64,000 nt of DNA from NCBI RefSeq assembly GCF_900129315.1, contig NZ_FQUS01000001.1:186001-250000 (forward strand), given 5' to 3'. The translations under genes and the position numbers were made by a program. The notes beneath the pieces were generated by a model, which saw only the letters and a list, made by a program, of their open reading frames with translations, ran no database searches and had not been told where the DNA came from. This document shows positions 3,476 to 61,869 of this stretch, piece after piece. The number at the start of each line of letters is the position of its first letter. Within the stretch, counting starts at the first letter, position 1. This stretch comes from Fodinibius roseus (GTDB lineage Bacteria > Bacteroidota > Rhodothermia > Balneolales > Balneolaceae).

Positions 3476-5476
3476 ATGAAAAATAGTACATTGATGATAT
3501 CCAGGATGGCATCTACTTTATTGGTTGTGCTGGTTCTGGCACTTTCTGCTTACATGGATGCACATGGCCAATCGCAAAAAATCGCTGAAATTACCGTCAA
3601 AGCGGGGGGATTTGACCGTTATTATACCCCGGTAAGTGCCTCACTCGAAGGGATACCGCTCGGACTTCAAACCGGACGGAGACTTCAGCTCTATGAAGTT
3701 GTGAAGGGTAAAGAGCGGGCGGTGGCGTCGCAACTGGAAGCGGACGGCTATGAGAAGAAACTCCGGTGGATACTGGAGGGGAAAACTCCCGCCGGGACTC
3801 ACCGGAATTATATACTCAAGAGTGAAGATAAAAACAGTCCGGATGCTACGGATGAGGCCATCCATATCCGGGATGACGGTAAATCACTGACGGTGATGGC
3901 CGGTGACCGGAAAGTGCTGAGTTACCGATACGTGGCCAAGTCTGCCCCGGAAGGCGTTTCTGAGCGCTACAGCCGCAGCGGGTATCTTCACCCGTTGTGG
4001 TCGCCGGAGGGTGAAGTGTTGACCAGGATTCAACCTCCCGATCACTATCACCACTACGGTCTCTGGAATCCGTGGACAAGAACCGTATTTGAGGGACGGG
4101 AAATCGATTTTTGGAATCTGGGAGAGGGACAGGGAACGGTGCGTCACAAATCAATGCCCCAAAGAATAGAAGGAGAGGTCTTCGGGGGATTTGAGGCATT
4201 GCTGAATCATGTGGACCTGACCGCACCCTCCGGTGAGAAAGCGGCTTTGAACGAAAAGTGGGAAGTCAAAGTCTGGAATGCGGACCCGGAAAGGGACGTG
4301 TGGCTGATCGATTTTGTCTCTACGCTGAATCCCGCAACGGAATCTCCGCTGACGATCAAGGCGTATCGTTACCAGGGATTCAGCCTCAGGGCTACCGGAA
4401 AATGGAGTGACAAAACCGCCACGCTGCAGACCTCAGAAGGAAAGGATAAAAGCAATGGCAACGGCACGCGTGCACGGTGGACCGATATCAATGGGGTTTC
4501 GCAGGTGGGGAATTCCGGCATTCTGTTTATGACGCATCCGGGCAACCAGAATTTTCCGGAACAGCTTCGGATCTGGCCCACGGGCGCTAATGAGGGGAAA
4601 GCAAATGTGTACTTCAACTTTAATCCCGCCCAGGAGGAGGACTGGAGGCTGGAGCCGGGGAGCAGCTACAGCTTAAAGTATCGCATGATGGTGTACGACG
4701 GGAAAATTGATTCCGCGGCTGCCGAGCGGTACTGGCGTGACTTCGGGAATCCTCCCGGGGTAGAAGTCCGGCATCAAGGCCTCGGGGGAAGCCGGGTATT
4801 GGTCTACACCAGAAATGGAGAAGGATATGTACATGACAATATTCCCAATAGTATTGAAGCCCTTAAGGAGCTCGGAGAAAACCACAATTTTATCGTTGAT
4901 ACATCAGATGATCCGGCTGATATTACTAAAGACAATCTAAAAAAATATGACGCGATAGTTTTTTCAAATACCAATAATGATGTTTTTACCACCCCGGAAC
5001 AGCACGATGCATTTCAAAATTATATTCGGTCAGGAGGAGGATTTGTAGGCATTCATTCGGCATCGGGCTCGGAGCGGGACTGGCCGTGGTTTTGGAGCCT
5101 GCTCGGCGGGTCTTTTTATCGACATGCCCCTTTCCAGAAGTTCACGGTAAATAGTACGGATGAAACCCATCCATCTACGGATTTTTTACCTCAGGAGTGG
5201 ATACGAGAGGATGAATGTTACTATCTCAAGCAATTGAACTCAGGTATTCATGTCCTGCTGCAGGCTGATATGACCACGGTGGAAGATAAAGGAAAGGGGG
5301 ATTATCCCGGCGACGTATTCGGAAGTACGTTTCCGTTAGCCTGGTATCAAGAGTTTGAGGGGGGACGCTCCTGGTATACTTCCCTGGGACACAGTGTTGA
5401 GGATTACGATGATCCGGTCTTCTTGCGACATATCCTGGGGGGCATTGAATGGGTCGTATCAGGTAGCAATCACTAA
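3476..5476 (+). CDS. DUF6807 (PmoA-like) + ThuA-like two-domain exported protein
   Basis: A 666-residue protein with an N-terminal signal peptide (about residues 1-32, ending near AHGQ). Residues about 35-430 match the DUF6807/PmoA-like family, with the His-rich DHYHHYGLWNPW motif. Residues about 440-660 match the ThuA/trehalose-utilisation glutamine-amidotransferase-like fold (VLVYTRNGEGYVHDN, GGGFVGIHSAS, LGHSVEDY). Both families are frequent in sugar catabolic loci of Bacteroidota and Planctomycetota, often beside Gfo/Idh/MocA oxidoreductases as here, but neither has a firmly assigned reaction. The function in glycan or sugar-acid breakdown is inferred from context. The stop lies 33 bp before the next gene, so co-transcription is likely. 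Confidence 0.85.
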   Translation: MKNSTLMISRMASTLLVVLVLALSAYMDAHGQSQKIAEITVKAGGFDRYYTPVSASLEGIPLGLQTGRRLQLYEVVKGKERAVASQLEADGYEKKLRWILEGKTPAGTHRNYILKSEDKNSPDATDEAIHIRDDGKSLTVMAGDRKVLSYRYVAKSAPEGVSERYSRSGYLHPLWSPEGEVLTRIQPPDHYHHYGLWNPWTRTVFEGREIDFWNLGEGQGTVRHKSMPQRIEGEVFGGFEALLNHVDLTAPSGEKAALNEKWEVKVWNADPERDVWLIDFVSTLNPATESPLTIKAYRYQGFSLRATGKWSDKTATLQTSEGKDKSNGNGTRARWTDINGVSQVGNSGILFMTHPGNQNFPEQLRIWPTGANEGKANVYFNFNPAQEEDWRLEPGSSYSLKYRMMVYDGKIDSAAAERYWRDFGNPPGVEVRHQGLGGSRVLVYTRNGEGYVHDNIPNSIEALKELGENHNFIVDTSDDPADITKDNLKKYDAIVFSNTNNDVFTTPEQHDAFQNYIRSGGGFVGIHSASGSERDWPWFWSLLGGSFYRHAPFQKFTVNSTDETHPSTDFLPQEWIREDECYYLKQLNSGIHVLLQADMTTVEDKGKGDYPGDVFGSTFPLAWYQEFEGGRSWYTSLGHSVEDYDDPVFLRHILGGIEWVVSGSNH

Positions 5477-50202: not shown

Positions 50203-50440
50203 GAATCGTTTTTGACAAGATTATTAAAGGTGAACGTCCCGGATGCGGGGATAAGATAAGAAAAGTAATACGGACTCACAGCCTTTTCGTCGGACCTGAT
50301 CTTGCGGACCATGATTTGTCTGTGGATTGCCGGAATGAGCACTGGCCCCGGATTGAACGGACGGGTCAGTTTCCTGTTGGCTTATATGACAGAATACCGT
50401 TACTTTCACTAATCATCTATTTTTAACATACTGATTCATT
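50203..50440. other. Divergent promoter region between ABC-F and the B12 operon
   Basis: About 240 bp before the riboswitch. No hairpin terminator or small ORF was found. Promoters for the ABC-F gene (leftward) and the btuFCD transcript (rightward) are expected here. TTTTTAACATACTG near 50410-50424 is AT-rich. Confidence 0.35.
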
Positions 50441-50690
50441 GGCGGTTCGTCCCGCTGCAGGCGGGACGTTAAAAGGGAATCCGGTGACCTGTCCCACATA
50501 GGGAATAGGTAGTCCGGAGCAGTCCCCGCTGCTGTAAGCTCCTGATTAACCCGTATTTCTCACTACTATTAATTACTTGGTGAGGAACCGGGCCAACGCT
50601 TTCAATCCTTCGATACCACTGTCCCGCTACTATCGGGACGGGAAGGTTGTTGAAAGTGGAGCAAGCCAGAAGACCTGCCGGCAATGATGA
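50440..50690 (+). promoter_or_regulatory. Cobalamin riboswitch 1 (upstream of btuF)
   Basis: Contains the conserved B12-element blocks in order: AAAAGGGAATCCGGTG (from 50471), GCAGTCCCCGCTGCTGTAA (about 50519-50537), an ACCACTG block near 50623, and the B12 box AGCCAGAAGACCTGCC (50664-50679). A CGTCCCGC/GCGGGACG hairpin lies at the front and a CCCG/CGGG peripheral hairpin near 50625-50642. By family knowledge it binds adenosylcobalamin and lowers expression of the downstream uptake genes when B12 is ample. It ends 32 bp before the chosen btuF start. Confidence 0.95.
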
Positions 50691-50696
50691 TGGAAA

Positions 50697-50715: not shown

Positions 50716-50721
50716 GTACCG

Positions 50722-51924
50722 ATGTCAATAAGGCGATCTTTTTTTCAACATACCTATTATACTATACGTATCTGTGCAGCCCTTTTGTCCACCGCTCTGC
50801 TTGCGGCGGGCTGCCAGTCATCCGCTTCCAAGGAACAGCCAAACGTCCCCGAGGCCGACGCGGAAATCGTTGATTTTACTCACAAGGCAGAGGCTGACTA
50901 TGCCGAGGGATTTCACATCAGCTATCATGACAACTACAAGCTTCTGGAAATTATCAATCCTTTTCAGGACCGGGTGGACACGCTGCGCTATTCCTTGGTA
51001 CCAAGGGGTATAGCAGATCAAGTTAATGTAAAAAATACCCGGGAAATCCCTATTCCGGTCCGCACCCTGGTCGCCACTTCCACCACCCATGTCGCTCTCA
51101 CGGACATGCTCAACGCCAATGAAACGATTACCGGGATGGTGGGCGCCGATTACATCTATACCCCGGAGGTCCGCCGGCGAATAGAGGAGGGGATCATAAC
51201 CGGCTTCCCGGAGGGGGAGCTAAATAAGGAAAAGGTGCTTGCTCTCGATCCCGATCTGCTTATGATTTCAGGGGGACAATCGTCACAGTTTGATAATTAC
51301 CGCGTGCTGATGGATTCCGGTATCGATCTGCTGGTAAATTCCGAATGGCTGGAGACGACCCCGTTGGGCAAGGCGGAATGGGTCAAGGTGATGGCGGCGC
51401 TGCTGAACAAAGAAAAGCTGGCCAACGAAAAATTCGACGCCGTAGCCCGGCGATATAATCACCTCAAGGCAGCGGTTGATACGGTAGAGGATAAACCGAC
51501 GACGATCAATAACATGCCATACAAGGGTGCCTGGTTTGTCCCGGGCGGGGAGAGCTTTACTGCCCGGTTTCTCAGGGACGCAGGAGCTGATTACCCGTGG
51601 TATGATTCCGGGGAGACCGGGGGACTCCGGAAAGCTTTCGAGGTGGTGTACCGGCAGGGACTGGAAGCCGATGTCTGGCTGCATCCCGGGACCGCAAAAA
51701 CAAAAGAGGATATTTTAGCCAAAGATGAGCGCTTCCGCGATTTTAAATCATTCCGGACCGGGAAAATCTATCATAACTACCGGCGCTCCACCCCGTCGGG
51801 TGCGAATGATTTTTGGGAATCGGGGGTCGTGCGTCCCGACCTTGTACTGGCTGATCTGGTCAAAATTTTCCATCCTGAAATCGCAGGTAATCATAACTTT
51901 TACTATTACGGCAACGTTGAGTGA
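50722..51924 (+). CDS. btuF: Cobalamin ABC transporter substrate-binding lipoprotein
   Basis: A 400-residue lipoprotein of the iron/cobalamin-binding (helical backbone) type. ATG at 50722 gives a clean lipoprotein signal (Arg-rich start, hydrophobic stretch, lipobox LAAGC, Cys31). An in-frame upstream start at 50647 would run through the B12 box and is rejected. Body: RTLVATSTTHVALTDMLNANETITGMVGADYIY, VLALDPDLLMISGG, and a C-terminal lobe with YHNYRRSTPSGANDFWESGVVRPDLVLADLVKIFHPE. It follows cobalamin riboswitch 1 and overlaps btuC by one base, so cobalamin rather than heme or siderophore is the expected ligand. Confidence 0.9.
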   Translation: MSIRRSFFQHTYYTIRICAALLSTALLAAGCQSSASKEQPNVPEADAEIVDFTHKAEADYAEGFHISYHDNYKLLEIINPFQDRVDTLRYSLVPRGIADQVNVKNTREIPIPVRTLVATSTTHVALTDMLNANETITGMVGADYIYTPEVRRRIEEGIITGFPEGELNKEKVLALDPDLLMISGGQSSQFDNYRVLMDSGIDLLVNSEWLETTPLGKAEWVKVMAALLNKEKLANEKFDAVARRYNHLKAAVDTVEDKPTTINNMPYKGAWFVPGGESFTARFLRDAGADYPWYDSGETGGLRKAFEVVYRQGLEADVWLHPGTAKTKEDILAKDERFRDFKSFRTGKIYHNYRRSTPSGANDFWESGVVRPDLVLADLVKIFHPEIAGNHNFYYYGNVE

Positions 51925-53000
51925 TGACTGATCAGCCAAAGGATCATAACAGGTCGTATCGTACGGGGATCCGTCCCCTGTACTTTTTACTGCTGGGGGC
52001 CGGGGTCGCCGGGCTGTTCCTGTTAAACCTGGCGCTCGGCTCGGTGGATATCCCGCTTCCCGATATTCTGCGTATATTGTGGGGGGGAGAAGTACAGGAG
52101 CCGGCGTGGCAAAAGATTCTGATCAATATCCGCCTTCCCCGCGCAGTTACCGCTATCCTGGCCGGCAGCGCGCTTTCCGTGGCGGGACTCCTTATGCAGA
52201 CGCTGTTTCGCAACCCGCTGGCCGGCCCCTCAGTGCTGGGCATCACGGCGGGAGCGAGTCTCGGCGTAGCGGTCGTGATGTTAGCCGGCGGGACGATCAC
52301 GACTATTTTTGCGATCCGTGAATTGACCGCATTGGGAAGCTGGCTCATTATTTTAGCGGCAAGTATCGGATCGGCAGCGGTATTATTGCTTATCCTGCTT
52401 ATCTCCGTAAGGGTCCGGGATAACGTGACGCTACTTATTATCGGTTTGATGGTCGGCAATATGACCATCGCTCTTGTGAGTATCTGGCAGTATTTCAGCC
52501 GGCCGGAACAGATACAGGACTACCTGATATGGACGTTCGGCAGCCTGGGCGGGGTACCGCTCGGTCAGCTTTGGATGTTGGGGGCCATAACGCTCGCGGG
52601 GGGAGGCATGGCCATGATACTGTCAAAATCACTCAACGGGCTGTTGCTGGGCGAAAACTATGCGCGCAGCATGGGCCTGTCCGTTTCCAGGGCCCGGCTC
52701 TGGATCATCGTAAGCACCAGCTTGCTGGCGGGGGGCATCACGGCTTTTTGCGGGCCTATCGGATTTGTCGGGATCGCCGTTCCCCATTTGACTCGATCGC
52801 TGCTGGGCACAAACGAGCATCGCGTGCTCGTTCCCGGAACCCTCTTGATGGGAGCGATGCTGCTGCTGGGCTGTGATGTCATCGCCCAGATGCCGGGTTC
52901 CACGGCGACCCTGCCCATCAGCGCGGTCACTTCGATGGTGGGCTCCCCGGTGGTTATATGGGTGATTATTCAACGCAAAAACCTGCAGGCTTCCTTCTGA
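51924..53000 (+). CDS. btuC: Cobalamin ABC transporter permease
   Basis: A 358-residue permease of the FecCD/BtuC family with about ten helices. Motifs: LPRAVTAILAGSALSVAGLLMQTLFRNPLAGPSVLGITAGASLGVA, SLNGLLLGENYARSMGLSVSRARL, and FCGPIGFVGIAVPHLTRSLLGTNEHR (coupling helix region contacting the ATPase). The ATG at 51924 overlaps the btuF stop in TGATG, a translational coupling arrangement. A GTG one codon earlier is possible. Confidence 0.95.
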   Translation: MTDQPKDHNRSYRTGIRPLYFLLLGAGVAGLFLLNLALGSVDIPLPDILRILWGGEVQEPAWQKILINIRLPRAVTAILAGSALSVAGLLMQTLFRNPLAGPSVLGITAGASLGVAVVMLAGGTITTIFAIRELTALGSWLIILAASIGSAAVLLLILLISVRVRDNVTLLIIGLMVGNMTIALVSIWQYFSRPEQIQDYLIWTFGSLGGVPLGQLWMLGAITLAGGGMAMILSKSLNGLLLGENYARSMGLSVSRARLWIIVSTSLLAGGITAFCGPIGFVGIAVPHLTRSLLGTNEHRVLVPGTLLMGAMLLLGCDVIAQMPGSTATLPISAVTSMVGSPVVIWVIIQRKNLQASF

Positions 53001-54031
53001 TGCATAACCCTGATTCCATTATATCGACCCGGGATCTGGAGATCGGCTTCCCGGCGCGGGGACGACGTCGTCCCTCCACCACCACCGTGGCCCGCCATAT
53101 TGATGTGTCGCTGCACAGGGGAGCGGTTGTTTGCCTGCTGGGGCCCAACGGGTCGGGGAAATCAACGCTCATCCGTACGCTTGCCGGACTGCACGCTCCA
53201 TTGAGCGGAGCGATCCACCTGTCGGGGGAAGAAATAGGCCGCCTTTCTATCAGGGAGATCTCCCGGGAGCTGAGTACGGTGCTGACCGATCGTCTTACGA
53301 TCGGTAATTTGAGCGTCTATGAGCTGGTGGCTTTCGGACGTTTGCCCTACACTGGCTGGTTCGGCTCCCTGGACCGAAAAGATGAAGAAAAAGTAGCCTG
53401 GGCTATCGAATCCACGGGTATCGAATCCTTTGTCGACCGTGACGTGCTGCATCTGAGCGACGGTGAGCGTCAGAAGGTGATGATCGCCCGGGCGCTGGCG
53501 CAGGATACCTCCGCCATCTTGCTGGATGAGCCCACGGCTCACCTGGACCTGCCCAACCGGGTGGCGATCATACGCCTGCTGCGCCGTTTGGCCCACGACA
53601 CACGGAAGGCAGTTTTGCTGTCGACCCATGAGCTGGATCTCGCTCTTAAAGCGGCCGACTCGCTGTGGCTTATTGACCGGCAGGGCAGGGTGGTCACCGG
53701 CACGCCCGAGGACCTGGTGCTGGACGGTACGTTTGAAGCTGTCTTTGCACAGGACAGCTTCGATTTCGACCGCGCCACCGGATCGTTCAGGCTTCACGAA
53801 CCTTCCAAAGGGCCGATCTGCCTGCATGGGGCTGCCGAGGGCGTCTTTTGGACGCGACGGGCCCTGGAGCGCTCCGGCTACCGGGTTTCAGAATCGGATG
53901 GTACAGCCCTCAGGGTGAAGGTACAGCCAACAGCGGAGGGATTCCGGTGGGATATCAGCTGCGAAGAGGAGCACTATACCTGCGATTCGGTCCGGGATTT
54001 GATTAATAAATTGGGGAAGTTAGAGTCTTGA
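53000..54031 (+). CDS. btuD: Cobalamin ABC transporter ATP-binding protein
   Basis: A 343-residue ABC ATPase of the FecE/BtuD type: Walker A LLGPNGSGKSTLIR (about 48-56), signature LSDGERQKVMIARAL, Walker B AILLDEPTAHLD, and switch His in LLSTHELDLALK. Residues about 255-343 form an extra C-terminal domain common in Bacteroidota members (WTRRALERSGYRVSESDGTALRVKV). The ATG at 53000 overlaps the btuC stop in TGATG, the same coupling as btuF-btuC. It is the last gene of the riboswitch 1 operon. Confidence 0.94.
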   Translation: MHNPDSIISTRDLEIGFPARGRRRPSTTTVARHIDVSLHRGAVVCLLGPNGSGKSTLIRTLAGLHAPLSGAIHLSGEEIGRLSIREISRELSTVLTDRLTIGNLSVYELVAFGRLPYTGWFGSLDRKDEEKVAWAIESTGIESFVDRDVLHLSDGERQKVMIARALAQDTSAILLDEPTAHLDLPNRVAIIRLLRRLAHDTRKAVLLSTHELDLALKAADSLWLIDRQGRVVTGTPEDLVLDGTFEAVFAQDSFDFDRATGSFRLHEPSKGPICLHGAAEGVFWTRRALERSGYRVSESDGTALRVKVQPTAEGFRWDISCEEEHYTCDSVRDLINKLGKLES

Positions 54032-54139
54032 TTTTTTTATGATCCTTTTGGATCAAGCCAAAAGGATCTATAAAAACCGTGCCTTTCTTTTTATCAGGAA
54101 AGCCCCTACTTTACGAGCGCTCTTTGAAATAGTGTATTG

Positions 54140-54370
54140 GTTTTCCGTCCCCCCCGGCGACTGTCGGCTCCGGGATGGAATGAAAAGGGAATTCCGTGCC
54201 CCGTCAGATGCTGACGTTTATCATAGATATGACGGGAAATCGGAAGCTGTACCCGCAACTGTAAATCCATTGCTACGCTGTCTCCAACCTTTTGCCACTG
54301 TCCCGGTAACCGGGATGGGAAGGCCGGACAGCAGGATGAGCCAGAAGACCTGCCAAACGATCCTATTTCT
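54140..54370 (+). promoter_or_regulatory. Cobalamin riboswitch 2 (upstream of the btuB-like gene)
   Basis: Ordered conserved blocks: GAAAAGGGAATTCCGTG (from 54182), AGCTGTACCCGCAACTGTAA (54245-54264), TTGCCACTG (about 54293), a CCCGG/CCGGG peripheral hairpin near 54302-54314, and the B12 box AGCCAGAAGACCTGCC (54339-54354), identical to that of riboswitch 1. It lies in the 378-bp gap after btuD and gives the receptor gene pair its own cobalamin control. Confidence 0.95.
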
Positions 54371-54373
54371 TGA

Positions 54374-54409: not shown

Positions 54410-56371
54410 ATGACCATCTTACACTTATATTATTATTTATATAGAAAAAAACAGATCAGCGTAGCTGTACTATGCTGCATTGCCCTGTTTGTATATGCAT
54501 GCCAACCTGCGCAGGCACAAACGCAAACGATAGCGGATACGCTTGAACTGGAGGAAGTGGAAGTTGTGGCCACGCGTATCGATCAGCCGATGAAGTACCA
54601 GCCTACCGCCGTAGAAGTAATCGATTCGACCCGTCTGAGCTTATTGCACGCCCAATCCATTGGCGATATCCTCGCGTCACAGTCCTCACTGTTTATAAAG
54701 AATAACGGGCCGGGCGGGATGGCAACCGCTTCGCAGCGGGGACTCTCATCCGAGCAGATCCAGGTGTTGTGGGAGGGAATTCCGATAAACAGTCCCACGA
54801 TCGGGCAAACAGATCTTTCCCTGCTGCCGACCAGTTTCTTTTCCAATATTCAGGTAAGTTCCGGGACGCCCAGCACCGCCTTCGGCGGCGGGAGTTTATC
54901 CGGGGCCCTCTATCTCTCTTCAGATTGGGAAGAGAGTCGTCATTTTTCCGCCCGGCAATGTGGCGGCTCGTTCGGACAGTGGCAATCGTCCCTGCAGGGA
55001 GGCTATACCACCGAAGACCTGCAGGTTTCGATCCGTGGATTATACGACTACGCCGAGAATGATTTTGAATATTATAACCGGGGGTACGACCGGGTTGAAA
55101 AGCGACAGCACAATCGCAGCGAGCGTTATAATATGATGGCTTCTGTAGGAGAAAAAACCGGGGCGGGGGAGTGGAAATCCGTCTTCTGGGCGGCCGACAG
55201 CGATAACCAAATTCCGGGCAATATATTGAATACCAACAGCCGGGCCCGGCAGGAAGATCAGGCAGTCCGATGGCTCAGTACATACCGACATAGCTGGGGA
55301 GATACCGAACTCGAGCTAAAGAATTTCCTGGGCCGAAGCGCATTGAACTATTTTGATCGCGGGATTAATACCCGAAGCTTTACGACTACCCGGCGCTGGT
55401 TGATCAGTTCAAACATCAAGCACACATTGAGTGAATATGTTGAGCTTAAGGGAGAGCTAAGTGGAGAACTAACGGGAGTAGAAACCAATAACTATAATTC
55501 CCTGAAAACGCGTCAGCAGTTCAGTGCCTTGACCAATCCGGAAGTTACGTTCTTTGACCGGCGGCTGCGTCTGTATCCGGCATTACGGCTGGATGTTTAT
55601 AGTGATTTTGGAACAGTATTGAGCCCTTCATTAGGGGTGAATTACGAATTGCTAACCAATCGGCTGTTTGTCCGGGGACAGCTGAGCCGGGATTTCAATC
55701 CCCCTACGTTCAATGCTCTGTACTGGGGACAGGGGGGCAATCCGGATTTGAAAGCGGAGCGGAGCAACAGTGCCGAAGCGGGAGTCACCCTTACGCCCCG
55801 CCGGTTTTTGGGCTTGTCTTCCGTTAAATTAACAGGCTACTACAGTGAGATTGATCATGGTATCCGGTGGTTTCCGGGAAATGACGGCATATATATCCCG
55901 TCCAATGTAGAGCAGCTGACCACCCAGGGGATAGAGGCATATATAAAAAATAGTTTTTTAATGCCCGGAAATTGGCACCTGCAGCTCGATCAATCCGGCA
56001 GCCTGAATCGGACCGAAATAACTGAACCCCGTTTTGACGGCGACGCGGCTGTGGGTCACCAGGTGCGCTATGTTCCCCAGTGGAAGTATAAAGCCTCGTT
56101 GAGCGTGGATAAAGGGATAGCCAGGGTACTTTTGCAATACCGGTGGGTTGGTCGCCGCTATACCACCGATACCGAGGATTTCAGTTCCTCCCTGGATCCC
56201 TATCAGGTACTGGATGCCACCCTGCAGCTCCGCCGGAGGTATGGGGATATCACCTTCAAAGCCCGGGCGGGCATCAAAAACCTGCTCGACAGGAATTATG
56301 AAATCATACAGTGGTACGCGATGCCACAACGGAATGTCACTTTTTCCCTAACAGCAACTTATCAATTATAA
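54410..56371 (+). CDS. btuB: BtuB-like TonB-dependent cobalamin receptor
   Basis: A 653-residue outer membrane receptor. Signal peptide about 1-37 (ends QAQ). TonB box region LEEVEVVATR (about 47-56). Plug about 58-180 with QSIGDILASQSSLFIKNNGPGGMATASQRGLSSEQIQVLWEGIPINSPTIG. The rest is a 22-strand barrel ending in aromatic-rich FSLTATYQL. The size is that of BtuB, far smaller than SusC, and it lacks the SusC N-terminal domain. The cobalamin riboswitch directly upstream identifies the substrate. The propeller lipoprotein 21 bp downstream is its likely partner. Confidence 0.93.
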   Translation: MTILHLYYYLYRKKQISVAVLCCIALFVYACQPAQAQTQTIADTLELEEVEVVATRIDQPMKYQPTAVEVIDSTRLSLLHAQSIGDILASQSSLFIKNNGPGGMATASQRGLSSEQIQVLWEGIPINSPTIGQTDLSLLPTSFFSNIQVSSGTPSTAFGGGSLSGALYLSSDWEESRHFSARQCGGSFGQWQSSLQGGYTTEDLQVSIRGLYDYAENDFEYYNRGYDRVEKRQHNRSERYNMMASVGEKTGAGEWKSVFWAADSDNQIPGNILNTNSRARQEDQAVRWLSTYRHSWGDTELELKNFLGRSALNYFDRGINTRSFTTTRRWLISSNIKHTLSEYVELKGELSGELTGVETNNYNSLKTRQQFSALTNPEVTFFDRRLRLYPALRLDVYSDFGTVLSPSLGVNYELLTNRLFVRGQLSRDFNPPTFNALYWGQGGNPDLKAERSNSAEAGVTLTPRRFLGLSSVKLTGYYSEIDHGIRWFPGNDGIYIPSNVEQLTTQGIEAYIKNSFLMPGNWHLQLDQSGSLNRTEITEPRFDGDAAVGHQVRYVPQWKYKASLSVDKGIARVLLQYRWVGRRYTTDTEDFSSSLDPYQVLDATLQLRRRYGDITFKARAGIKNLLDRNYEIIQWYAMPQRNVTFSLTATYQL

Positions 56372-56392
56372 TTTATTTTTAGATACCTTATC

Positions 56393-57451
56393 ATGAAACA
56401 ACGATTTATACGTTCCCTCTCTCTATTGGTAGTTACCTTTCTTATCGGTTCCTGTGTGGATGGGGGGAATAATCCCGACCCATTAGAACTCTCCTCTGTC
56501 TATGTCACGAATGAAGGAAACTTCAATGATAGCGATGGTTCATTGACGAGTTATGACCCTGAATCGGGAAGTACCCTTAAAAAAGCGTTCGGAAATGCCA
56601 ATGGCCGTCCCCTGGCCGGCATCATCCAATCCGCTAAAATAGCCGGGGAGCATATCTTTATGGTATTGAACAATGCTAATAAGATTGAAGTCGCGGAAGT
56701 CGAGTCGCTGGAAAGCGTGGCAACGATTGAGCTCTCGACTACTCCCACTGATTTTGAGATTATAAATAACCAGACAGGCTATGTCAGCAACCTGTATGAT
56801 GGCAGTGTTACGGTGGTTGACCTGGAAAACTTTGAAGAAACCGATCAAAGGATATCCGTGGGATCACAACCGTGGTCGATTTTTCGTATGAATAACCTGG
56901 CGTTTGTCGCAAACAAGGGGGCGGGCAATGACAATACGATCTCCGTAATAAATACGACCAGTCATACGGTCGATCATACTATTGAAGCGGGGCCCGGCCC
57001 CCAGGATATCAGTGTAGATATGGCCGGCCGACTCTGGGTGGTTTGCAACGGGTTGATCGCTTATGATGAGAACTGGGAGCGGGATCCTGCCAATGATAAG
57101 CCCGGAAGCGTCTATCTTATTGATGGAAGCAGCGCTACGGTAATCGACTCCATTGAAACCGGGGGACACCCTACCGGGATTGCACTGGATAATGACAATG
57201 CGAAGGCCTATTTACTGAATGACGGGATATCCGTGATTGATATGAATACGTTGTCGGTCGAGGAAGAACCGTTTACTTCACGTTCTTTCAGTGCCATTGG
57301 CTACCTGCCTACCCAGGAGCGCTTGTATGTCGGGGACAGCAGGGGATACAGCCAGGATGGACAGGCGTTGATTTATGACCAGCAGGGCACGGCCGTGGAT
57401 TCCTTTAACGTCGGTATCGCTCCCAATGGATTTCATTTTGTCGTGAATTAA
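56393..57451 (+). CDS. BtuG-like beta-propeller surface lipoprotein
   Basis: A 352-residue lipoprotein (lipobox LIGSC, Cys21) with repeated blade motifs of a YncE/DUF5074-type seven-bladed propeller: SSVYVTNEGNF, GYVSNLYDGSVTVVDLENF, LAFVANKGAGNDNTISVINTTSHTVDHTI, GRLWVVCNG, KAYLLNDGISVIDMNTL. It starts 21 bp after the BtuB-like gene under riboswitch 2. In gut Bacteroides the lipoprotein BtuG is a propeller that sits on BtuB and captures cobalamin with very high affinity. The same order, size and fold make this a BtuG counterpart by inference. Confidence 0.8.
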   Translation: MKQRFIRSLSLLVVTFLIGSCVDGGNNPDPLELSSVYVTNEGNFNDSDGSLTSYDPESGSTLKKAFGNANGRPLAGIIQSAKIAGEHIFMVLNNANKIEVAEVESLESVATIELSTTPTDFEIINNQTGYVSNLYDGSVTVVDLENFEETDQRISVGSQPWSIFRMNNLAFVANKGAGNDNTISVINTTSHTVDHTIEAGPGPQDISVDMAGRLWVVCNGLIAYDENWERDPANDKPGSVYLIDGSSATVIDSIETGGHPTGIALDNDNAKAYLLNDGISVIDMNTLSVEEEPFTSRSFSAIGYLPTQERLYVGDSRGYSQDGQALIYDQQGTAVDSFNVGIAPNGFHFVVN

Positions 57452-58023: not shown

Positions 58024-58081
58024 TCACAAAAAGCAGGGATCCCCAGGTTTTGCCGGAAAGAAGATCTGCAGGCGAATCAAT

Positions 58082-58090
58082 TGTGGATAA
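58082..58090 (-). promoter_or_regulatory. DnaA box-like site 2
   Basis: TGTGGATAA, the exact consensus on the minus strand, 58 bp after site 1 and facing it. Confidence 0.65.
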
Positions 58091-58101
58091 CTACCCGGTT
58101 T

Positions 58102-58110
58102 TGTGGAAAA
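58102..58110 (-). promoter_or_regulatory. DnaA box-like site 3 (one mismatch)
   Basis: TGTGGAAAA reads TTTTCCACA on the minus strand, one base from the consensus, 20 bp from site 2 and in the same orientation. Confidence 0.45.
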
Positions 58111-58242
58111 GTATTTCAGTTTTTGCTTGTACCGGAGCACAAGTCCTTTATATTTTATAGAAGGCAAAAGAGCCAAGTTATTGTTATTGCTTTTACCCGA
58201 AAGGCCTATCCAAGTAAAAATATTAGTCAAGGAACCAGTTAT

Positions 58243-61200
58243 ATGAAATTTACACGTTTTTATACTCAGGAAGAGTGGGAGACCCCCTTTGAAAATATGA
58301 CATTCGAGAGCCGGAAATCAGAGATCAAGAATCCGGATGGATCACTGGTATTCTCCATGGAGAATGTGATCGTCCCCAAGTCCTGGTCGCAGGTATCCAC
58401 GGATGTTATTGCGCAGAAATATTTCCGCAAGGCCGGGGTCCCGAAGAAAACCAGGAAAGTTAAAGAGAAAGGTGTCCCGGAGTGGCTACAGCGATCAGAG
58501 CCCGATGAGAAGGCTATGAAGGATATCGATGAAGAAGAGCGATACGGCGGCGAGAACGACAGCCATCAGGTGTTCCATCGCCTGGCGGGCTGCTGGACCT
58601 ACTGGGGCTGGAAGCACGATTACTTTGACTCCGAAAAAGATGCGAAGGTTTTCTACGATGAGCTGCGTTATATGCTTGCCAACCAGATGGCGGCTCCCAA
58701 CAGTCCCCAGTGGTTTAATACCGGCCTGCACTGGGCCTACGGCATTAACGGTCCGTCACAGGGACACTATTATGTGGACGGCAAGACGGGCGAGCTCACA
58801 AAGTCGGATGACGCCTACAGCCACCCCCAGCCTCATGCCTGCTTTATCCAGAGTATTGATGACAACCTGGTCAACGAGGGCGGTATCATGGATCTTTGGG
58901 TCCGCGAAGCACGTCTCTTCAAATACGGCTCGGGGACGGGCAGCAACTTTTCCAAAATTCGCGGAGAAGGAGAGCCGCTGAGCGGGGGAGGGAAGTCCTC
59001 CGGACTTATGAGTTTTCTGAAGATCGGGGACAAGGCCGCCGGGGCGATTAAATCGGGCGGGACCACCCGCCGGGCCGCCAAGATGGTTACCCTCGATCTC
59101 GACCATCCCGATATTGAAGAATATGTGAACTGGAAGGTTCGCGAGGAGCAAAAGGTGGCCTCGATGGTTGCGGGATCTAAAATTCTGGAGAAGCATCTTA
59201 AGAAAATTATCAAGCTCTGCAACAAGCCAGTGGAAATTGACGGGCGTACCTTTAACGGGGCGGTCAGCCGCGACCCGTTGAAAAACAAAGAGCTCGGAAA
59301 AGCCATTAAAGAGGCCAAGGAAGACCAGGTACCGCTCAATTATATTGAACGGGTGGTACAGCTGGCATCACAGGGCTTCACCGACCTGAAATTCGATACC
59401 TACGATACGGACTGGGATTCAGAGGCCTACCGCACGGTAAGCGGACAGAATTCCAATAATTCGGTTCGTATTCCCAACAAGTTTATGAAGGCCGTCAAGG
59501 ATGACGGCGAGTGGAACCTCTACTGGAGAACGGAGAAGCGTAAAGCCAAGGAAGAGGGCCGTGAGCCGAAGCCGTGCAAAACCATGCCGGCGCGTGAACT
59601 CTGGGATGAAATTTCCAACGCGGCCTGGGCTTGCGCCGACCCGGGAGCGCAGTATCACGATACCATTAACGAATGGCATACGTGCCCCGAAGACGGACCG
59701 ATCAACGGGAGTAATCCCTGCTCGGAATACATGTTCCTGGACAACACGGCCTGTAACCTGGCTTCCCTCAACCTGATGAAGTATTTCAAAACAGACGAGT
59801 GCAAGGAGTTTGATGTGGAAGCACTCCGGAATGCCTCGCGGCTCTGGACTGTCGTGCTGGAGATCTCCGTACTGATGGCCCAGTTCCCCTCCAGGGAAAT
59901 AGCGGATCTTTCGTACAAGTATCGCACGCTGGGGCTGGGATATGCCAACATCGGGGCGGCGCTGATGGTCCGGGGCGTCCCCTACGACAGTCCCGAAGGA
60001 TGCGCGATTGCCGGGGGGCTGACCAGCCTTATCCATATGAATGCCTATGCCACCAGCGCGGAAATGGCGAGTGAGCTGGGCACCTTCGAGCGATACGAAG
60101 CCAACAAAGAGCATATGCTGCGGGTGGTGCGCAATCACAAGCGGGCGGCTTTTAATGTCGATCCCGACGAATATGAGGGACTGACCGTCAAGCCGATGGG
60201 CATTGATGCAAACCAGTGTCCCGATAACCTGCTGAAGGCAGCGCGCAAGGATTCCGAGAAAGCCGTGAAGATGGGTGAGAAGCATGGCTATCGCAATGCA
60301 CAGGTAACGGTTATCGCCCCGACCGGCACCATCGGACTGGTCATGGACTGCGACACCACGGGTATAGAGCCTGATTTTGCGCTTGTGAAGTTTAAGAAGC
60401 TGGCCGGTGGCGGGTATTTCAAGATCATCAACCAGTGCGTCCCCAAAGCACTCGAAAATCTGGGATACGCTCCCAGGGAGCGCCAGGAGATCATCGATTA
60501 CGCCAAAGGTCACGGTGAGCTGGAGGGCTGCCCGCATATCAATGAAGAGAGCCTGCGCGAGAAAGGCTTCGGAGATGCCCAGTTGGAGGCGATCAAAGAA
60601 GCGCTGCCAAGCAGTTTCGATATCAAATTCGCCTTTAACCAGTTTACGCTGGGCGAGGATTTTTGTGAGCAGGAACTGGGACTGGAGGAGGAGCAGCTGG
60701 CCGATCCGCAGTTTAACATGCTGAAGTATCTCGGCTACTCGCAGCGGGAGATCCAGGAAGCGAACGATTACGTGTGCGGGACCATGACCGTGGAAGGAGC
60801 GCCGCACCTGAAAGACGAGCACCTGCCGGTCTTCGACTGCGCCAATCGGTGCGGGCGAATCGGGACGCGCTACATTAAGCCCGGGGGACACATCCGGATG
60901 ATGGCCGCCGCGCAGCCGTTTATTTCGGGAGCGATTTCCAAGACAATTAACCTGCCGAATGAAGCGACCGTGGAAGACTTCAAGGATGCGTATATGGATT
61001 CCTGGGAGCTGATGCTGAAAGCCAACGCCCTCTATCGCGACGGCTCGAAATTAAGTCAGCCGCTGAACAGCCTCAGCGATGTCTTTGAGGAACTGGAAGA
61101 CGAAGAGGACCTGGAAGAGACAGCGGAGGCACAGGACAAAGTGGTGGAGTCGGCCGAAAAAATCATCCACAAGTATGTGGCCAACCGCCAGCGGCTGCCA

Positions 61201-61869
61201 AGCCGGCGGACCGGTTACACGCAGAAAGTGAAAATCGGGGGACAGAGTGTCTACCTGCGGACGGGTGAATATGAGAATGGTCAGCTGGGTGAAATCTTCA
61301 TTGATATGCACCGCGAGGGGGCCGCATTCCGCAGCCTCACCAATTGCTTTGCCATTGCGATCTCGCTCGGCCTGCAGCACGGCGTGCCGCTGGAGGAGTT
61401 CGTGGATGCCTTCACCTTCACCAAGTTCGAACCCAGCGGGATGGTCAACGGAAGTCCGCATATTAGAATGACGACATCCGTTATTGATTACATCTTCCGG
61501 GAGCTGGCCGTGACGTACCTCGGCCGGGATGACCTGGCGCATGTCCCTGCCGACGATATTATGTCGCGTAAACTGCGTCCCTCTGAAGAGGCCGAACAAG
61601 CCCGCGAGAAAGCAAAAAGGGTAGACCCGACGCAGAAGAAAAAGCCTGATTCCACCAATCAAAATCAGCCGGAAACCGTCACTCAGGCACAATCTGCAAA
61701 GCAGGCCCGGACGGCCGCTGATGATGACAGTTACCAGAGCGACTACGAGAAGGCTAAGGAGATGGGCTACACCGGCGATTCGTGTCCTGAGTGCGGAAGC
61801 ATGACGATGGTACGCAACGGCACCTGCCAGAAGTGCATCACCTGCGGCTCGACGACGGGGTGCTCGTAA
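58243..61869 (+). CDS. nrdJ: Vitamin B12-dependent (class II) ribonucleotide reductase
   Basis: A 1208-residue adenosylcobalamin-dependent reductase making deoxynucleotides. The start at 58243 ([16 protein letters not shown]) is the usual NrdJ N-terminus; in-frame codons back to 58081 overlap the DnaA-like sites. Motifs: [14 protein letters not shown] with the first redox Cys, [16 protein letters not shown], the active-site loop [53 protein letters not shown], and a C-terminal Zn/redox Cys tail ([18 protein letters not shown]...CGS). A Lys/Glu-rich linker (about 1115-1170) precedes the tail. Full length. It uses the vitamin imported by the genes upstream. Confidence 0.97.

Follow-up and report, generated by a model that had tools for sequence, protein, structure and literature searches.

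A probable BtuB-BtuG vitamin B12 uptake pair in Fodinibius roseus (Balneolaceae), with relatives outside the gut

The closest described systems are the vitamin B12 transporters of Bacteroides thetaiotaomicron, in which BtuG caps the receptor BtuB and a BtuB loop, EL8, carries an aromatic residue (Tyr538 in BtuB3) that expels B12 from the lid, according to the sections of PMC10404256 consulted. The pair is reported from gut Bacteroides in excerpts of PMC6143338 and PMC10404256. Those of Wexler 2018 (PMC6143338) place BtuG homologs exclusively in Bacteroidetes after a search of 313 gut genomes, and those of Abellon-Ruiz 2023 (PMC10404256) regard TonB transporters capped by a lipoprotein as apparently confined to Bacteroidetes and useful in the gut. 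DUF4465 also binds B12, and PF16819 propellers adjoin 40% of one DUF4465 cluster, according to passages of a 2026 paper (PMC13398666). Among open-licence PMC papers, we found none that places BtuG in Balneolota or gives it a type IX tail, and none bringing Balneolota, cobalamin and TonB together.

The window analyzed here is a 64,000-nucleotide stretch of the Fodinibius roseus genome, and its relevant features are collected in Table 1. The initial annotation had described a propeller lipoprotein directly following a BtuB-like receptor under a cobalamin riboswitch, the arrangement of BtuB-BtuG, in a genome resembling Balneolota, and all of these observations held. Receptor and propeller lie on the same strand with 21 bases between their open reading frames, and 38 bases separate the riboswitch from the receptor start. 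Sequence, predicted fold, gene order, riboswitch, lipobox and receptor loop fit the BtuB-BtuG arrangement. Within the window's own family, two genomes carry the deposited name Balneolaceae (locus L037 matches L137 letter for letter, and L045 has the stretches tested in common with L081). With btuFCD-like genes upstream and nrdJ downstream, the window covers capture at the outer membrane, import across the inner membrane and an enzyme that uses B12. The btuC-like gene scores 191 bits with the BtuC equivalog model, whose cut-off is 334. The btuD-like ATPase (53003-54031) has about 80-90 extra residues past the ATPase match and is of similar length in relatives L035 and L038.

Table 1. Features of the vitamin B12 locus, in positions of the window
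Feature	Position	Strand	Basis
Second cobalamin riboswitch, before btuF-btuC-btuD	50426-50696	+	94.6 bits
btuF-, btuC-, btuD-like genes (periplasmic binding protein, permease, ATPase)	50719-54031	+	domain and family profile matches
Cobalamin riboswitch RF00174, before btuB-btuG	54121-54371	+	82 bits against a gathering score of 31.5; E 1.1e-18; full model 1-189
BtuB-like TonB-dependent receptor, 653 aa	54410-56371	+	ORF, Plug and TonB_dep_Rec, predicted fold
Receptor loop EL8, W487-N499 (WFPGNDGIYIPSN)	55868-55906	+	Tyr495 aligned with BtuB3 Tyr538
BtuG-like propeller lipoprotein, 352 aa	56393-57451	+	ORF, PF16819 DUF5074, predicted fold
Signal peptide of propeller, lipobox IGSC, Cys21	56393-56455	+	sequence
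Propeller ligand-gripping loop N40-S50 (BtuG2 Asn54-Thr64)	56510-56542	+	alignment
B12-dependent ribonucleotide reductase NrdJ, downstream of btuG	58081-61869	+	NF005736 2014.6 bits, cut-off 1737

The same arrangement recurs across the order. Its 58 genomes, the window's own included, were classified with a propeller cut of E <= 1.1e-23, reached by 34 genomes (the next weaker best match of a genome is at 4e-7), and a receptor cut of E <= 1e-40, reached by 39. Both genes are found in 34 genomes, BtuB alone in 5, BtuG alone in none and neither in 19. All 33 relatives' loci with both genes have btuB then btuG on one strand and a riboswitch before btuB, a recurrence that speaks against chance. The nrdJ gene lies downstream in 20 of these 33 stretches, sometimes several kb off, and some of the stretches end early. 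Among the loci with BtuB alone, L187 is cut by the contig end, and in L188-L191 btuB is directly followed by an open reading frame that reads as nrdJ, consistent with where the NrdJ matches fall. Distances among BtuBs and among BtuGs are correlated (Spearman 0.69, 528 pairs), as much as shared descent alone could give. At L061 (G033:C71:59104-61210), the btuB frame is broken by several stops and the neighboring btuG frame is open; L064 holds two Acido-Lenti-1 RNA matches in opposite directions, at 4242-4287 (-) and 4421-4466 (+).

A single-sequence phmmer search of the PDB with the receptor returned only BtuB2, BtuB3 and BtuB1 of B. thetaiotaomicron at E <= 0.001. A 33-row receptor profile ranked BtuB2 (345 bits), BtuB3 (339), BtuB1 (190), E. 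coli BtuB (101-106) and CirA (81), and Foldseek placed the B. thetaiotaomicron BtuB3, BtuB2 and BtuB1 chains of BtuBG complexes at ranks 1-6 for the predicted fold (pLDDT 88.8), followed by E. coli BtuB. All three comparisons thus put the receptor nearer to Bacteroides BtuB than to other TonB receptors. NCBIfam heme-receptor models match it below their cut-off, but the order of profile scores and the riboswitch directly before the receptor in all 33 relatives make it hardly credible that it imports heme, a siderophore or another substrate while the riboswitch serves something else. The propeller matches PF16819 (DUF5074) at 41.1 bits against a cut-off of 27.2, the one DUF5074 match in the whole genome, and its best phmmer matches in the PDB are BtuG2, BtuG3 and 3DSM, at E 3e-25 and weaker. 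Its profile scores the BtuG2 and BtuG3 chains at 224 bits, BtuG1 at 167, 1l0q at 158 (in four separate stretches) and the next at 59. Foldseek ranks 1-16 for its predicted fold (pLDDT 93.8) are all BtuG or 3DSM. The structural comparison with B. thetaiotaomicron BtuG, proposed at the outset as a check, came out in favor: VIA-align gives the BtuG and 3DSM chains Z scores of 37.6-40.5 against 33.2 for the next chain, in a list where a missing family is not thereby excluded. The whole predicted chain aligns to seven-bladed BtuG chains, the seven blades being taken from this alignment and not from a separate count. Identity to BtuG2 is 82/321 (~26%), and the net charge (K+R minus D+E) is strongly negative at -29; counted the same way, the BtuG2 stretch has -19. 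That this is an unrelated YncE/YVTN-type propeller merely adjoining btuB is very improbable. NCBIfam YVTN/YncE repeat models do match, and 1l0q and YncE have the same fold, but BtuG chains lead both in profile bits and in Z, and the propeller adjoins btuB in 33/33, 36/39 and, among the matches listed, 64/72 assessable loci.

The ligand pocket is conserved in part. The loop that grips the ligand, Asn54-Thr64 in BtuG2, is kept, with Asn in 35/35 rows, Gly in 35/35 and Phe in 33/35, BtuG2 included. BtuG2 residues Trp194, Tyr239, Trp272 and Tyr316 are replaced by A177, I222, H259 and S300, leaving Tyr335 (Tyr319 in the window propeller) as the only one kept of five aromatics checked, and loop β5A is longer than in BtuG2. 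In BtuG2, Trp194, Trp272 and Tyr316 narrow the cavity for the upper ligand. Of the initial proviso that a propeller or pocket unlike BtuG would count against the assignment, the propeller half went in favor of BtuG, since the whole chain aligns, but part of the upper-ligand pocket does differ. These replacements, His259 for Trp272, Ala177 for Trp194 and Ser300 for Tyr316, with histidine at the Trp272 place in 12/34 Balneolales rows, would suit a pair that imports a corrinoid with a different lid preference, its rebuilt cavity favoring other upper ligands or its His259 binding cobalt, and its affinity BtuG-like without being BtuG2-like. Against this stand the retained Asn54-Thr64 loop, overall fold and riboswitch and, according to PMC10404256, hydrogen bonds to the corrin side chains that come from BtuG blades 1-4; we regard this alternative as unlikely. 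Contact between the histidine near the upper ligand and cobalt is a guess that we hold to be more doubtful still.

The locus is, in our judgment, very probably a BtuB-BtuG vitamin B12 uptake pair. This reading follows from the riboswitch, from nearest solved structures that are the BtuBG complexes of B. thetaiotaomicron, from gene order and riboswitch in 33/33 relatives, from the absence of BtuG without BtuB among the 58 genomes, and from the EL8 motif, the net charge, NrdJ next door, an intact MetH and no CbiC. Against it count the low identity, the pocket replacements, EL8 in BtuBs that lack BtuG and a B12 need that does not predict the pair. By analogy with work on B. thetaiotaomicron (Abellon-Ruiz 2023, Wexler 2018), surface display, corrinoid binding, lid motion and hand-over can be proposed for the pair. 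Low cobalamin would release the riboswitch, and both btuB and btuG would be made. The propeller would be taken to the cell surface as a lipoprotein, bind corrinoids and act as a lid on the receptor. Upon closing of the lid, the aromatic tip of EL8 would push the vitamin off it and into the barrel, TonB energy would carry the vitamin through the receptor, and BtuF-BtuCD would complete its import.

EL8 itself is highly conserved. Its columns in 33 Balneolales rows show W in 33/33, P in 32/33, an aromatic in 30/33, P in 31/33 and N in 33/33, and the window receptor has the aromatic tip (Tyr495). Loss of EL8 was expected where BtuG is lost, an expectation contradicted by L188, L190, L191 and the DUF4465 loci, all of which keep the loop; L189 has an altered form. 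Because it is also kept where BtuG is missing, EL8 is not a mark of BtuG and does not discriminate. It may serve any lid or belong to the receptor's own site. At L127 (Aliidiomarina sanyensis), a gammaproteobacterial receptor resembling BtuB (79 bits) has an EL8-like motif, and BtuG is not in range.

The propellers carry two kinds of predicted surface anchor. Among 34 Balneolales propellers, an N-terminal lipobox is present in 19 (assigned by eye in L040, L046 and L067), and the other 15 end in a type IX sorting tail instead; none has both and none has neither. Of ten propellers scanned with TIGR04183, all six tailed ones exceed the cut-off and all four untailed ones lack the match. The type IX tail stands in place of the lipobox at L049-L062, L064, L192-L196 and L231, and in the phylum sample the best propeller is tailed at 6 of 39 loci (L192-L196, L231), every one of them from the class to which the window belongs. 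No named-genome BtuG among the matches listed has such a tail. On a tree of rows trimmed beforehand to the propeller profile, the anchor state changes at least three times. The secretion protein SprA is found in 58/58 genomes of the order, so both export routes are open to all of them. At L219:5602-7290 and L222:232-1920, the lipoprotein BtuG is followed by a second propeller, weaker and more distant, that bears a type IX tail. In some Bacteroidota loci, near an EL8-bearing receptor, four of ten proteins scanned (L083, L120, L133, L077) are DUF4465 proteins with Por_Secre_tail; L083, L120 and L133 have no BtuG in range, and at L077 the edge hides what follows btuB. If these assignments are true, a type IX-exported lid would be tethered by its C-terminus or released, not hinged on an N-terminal lipid. 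This natural swap of lipid anchor and type IX tail would be a direct test of the need for an N-terminal hinge in the lid model.

Three cobalamin riboswitches were found in the genome, the third of them lying before what is left of metE, with nrdB and nrdA, the class I ribonucleotide reductase, behind it (L068:7592-8397, minus strand, contig C52 of the same genome). The remnant consists of two ends only, positions 2-79 of the N-terminal domain and 144-323 of the catalytic domain, and an assembly error may lie behind the truncation. MetH is whole, with an open frame of 1261 aa. CbiC, the sole B12-biosynthesis marker looked for, is absent from the genome, so the statement that B12 cannot be made rests on one gene. 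From the metE remnant, the whole MetH and the absent CbiC, methionine synthesis should need B12 from outside. Across the 58 genomes, NrdJ is present in 55, MetH in 54 and BtuB in 39. The notion that B12-using genomes are the BtuBG genomes finds no support in these counts, those of NrdJ and MetH running far beyond the 34 BtuBG carriers.

At the scale of the phylum, the propeller profile matches at least 160 of 395 genomes in an even sample (E <= 1e-25), a lower bound as four candidates were scored per genome. In 39 such loci from many families, btuB adjoins or lies within ~1 kb in 36 and was not found in L208, L216 and L227; Rfam scans of 18 of the 39 found the riboswitch in 17 and none at L214, where the gene order is reversed. 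The pair is also found in Flavobacteriia, Chitinophagaceae and Saprospiraceae. Named genomes were scanned by DNA pattern for FNxLYWxxGGN, and 80 of at least 117 stretches were listed as a sample. All 80 loci among the matches listed have BtuB, with BtuG downstream in 64, absent in 8 and cut by the edge in 8. The taxa among the matches listed include Flavobacterium, Chryseobacterium, Polaribacter, Chitinophaga, Saprospiraceae, Marinilabiliales and five Neomarinimicrobiota MAGs. Four of these five MAGs have BtuG (L071, L087, L108, L142), three of the four with a riboswitch, and the L108 receptor runs to the edge. The four propellers form one clade (100/100), which makes contamination of single MAGs unlikely, and this occurrence runs against the printed exclusivity to Bacteroidetes.

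In a tree of 101 propellers, the window falls in the starred Balneolales group and B. thetaiotaomicron BtuG2 with Bacteroidia rows, with nothing to point to gut Bacteroides as a recent donor. No single branch of the best tree separates the Balneolales rows from the rest (two changes), deep branches are weak and the bootstrap is unsettled; a single origin may still apply. As the tree is unrooted, an ancestral state can be proposed from it but not read off. The initial suggestion that the locus would widen the known range of the capture system stands insofar as the pair exists outside the gut, but it was too narrow, as the window genome is one of many. The pair is probably no gut invention, since it is widespread in related genomes and has two kinds of surface anchor. 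A broader proposal, which we hold to be evenly balanced, is that a BtuB with a lid gripping B12 dates far back on the Bacteroidota, Balneolota and Neomarinimicrobiota side of the tree and is not a gut adaptation, and also that the lid is exchangeable, one EL8-bearing receptor working with a propeller on a lipid anchor, with one exported by the type IX route (at least three changes) or with a type IX-exported DUF4465 protein. With the pair in Balneolaceae, environmental Bacteroidota and Neomarinimicrobiota, the evolution of the lid becomes testable outside the gut.

As a probable BtuBG pair, well formed and found in a new place, the locus is worth following for its wider range, tail-for-lipid swap and rebuilt pocket. 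A comparison with the known systems shows what is shared. With BtuB2G2 and BtuB3G3 of B. thetaiotaomicron (PDB 8BMX, 8P97/8P98, 8BAI, 8BMY), the window has in common the gene pair, both folds, the lipoprotein anchor, the EL8 aromatic tip, the Asn54-Thr64 loop, strong negative charge and riboswitch control, the last in B. thetaiotaomicron known from parts of the published papers. It differs in its ~26% propeller identity, replaced upper-ligand cavity residues, longer loop β5A and neighboring nrdJ, and B. thetaiotaomicron has three loci in the published excerpts, whereas the window genome has a single DUF5074 match. BtuB1G1 (PDB 8BLW) has the same pair and folds but is more distant by profile, and BtuG1 has a C-terminal BtuH domain, as its paper states in the part consulted, that the window propeller lacks. 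E. coli BtuB shares the B12 receptor fold, but its aligned region lacks the W-x-P...P-x-N motif of EL8 and it is described, in the portion of the paper at hand, without a lid partner. DUF4465 proteins of the BtuJ type are B12-binding partners near BtuB in excerpts of PMC13398666, but they are beta jelly rolls and not propellers, and the window holds none.
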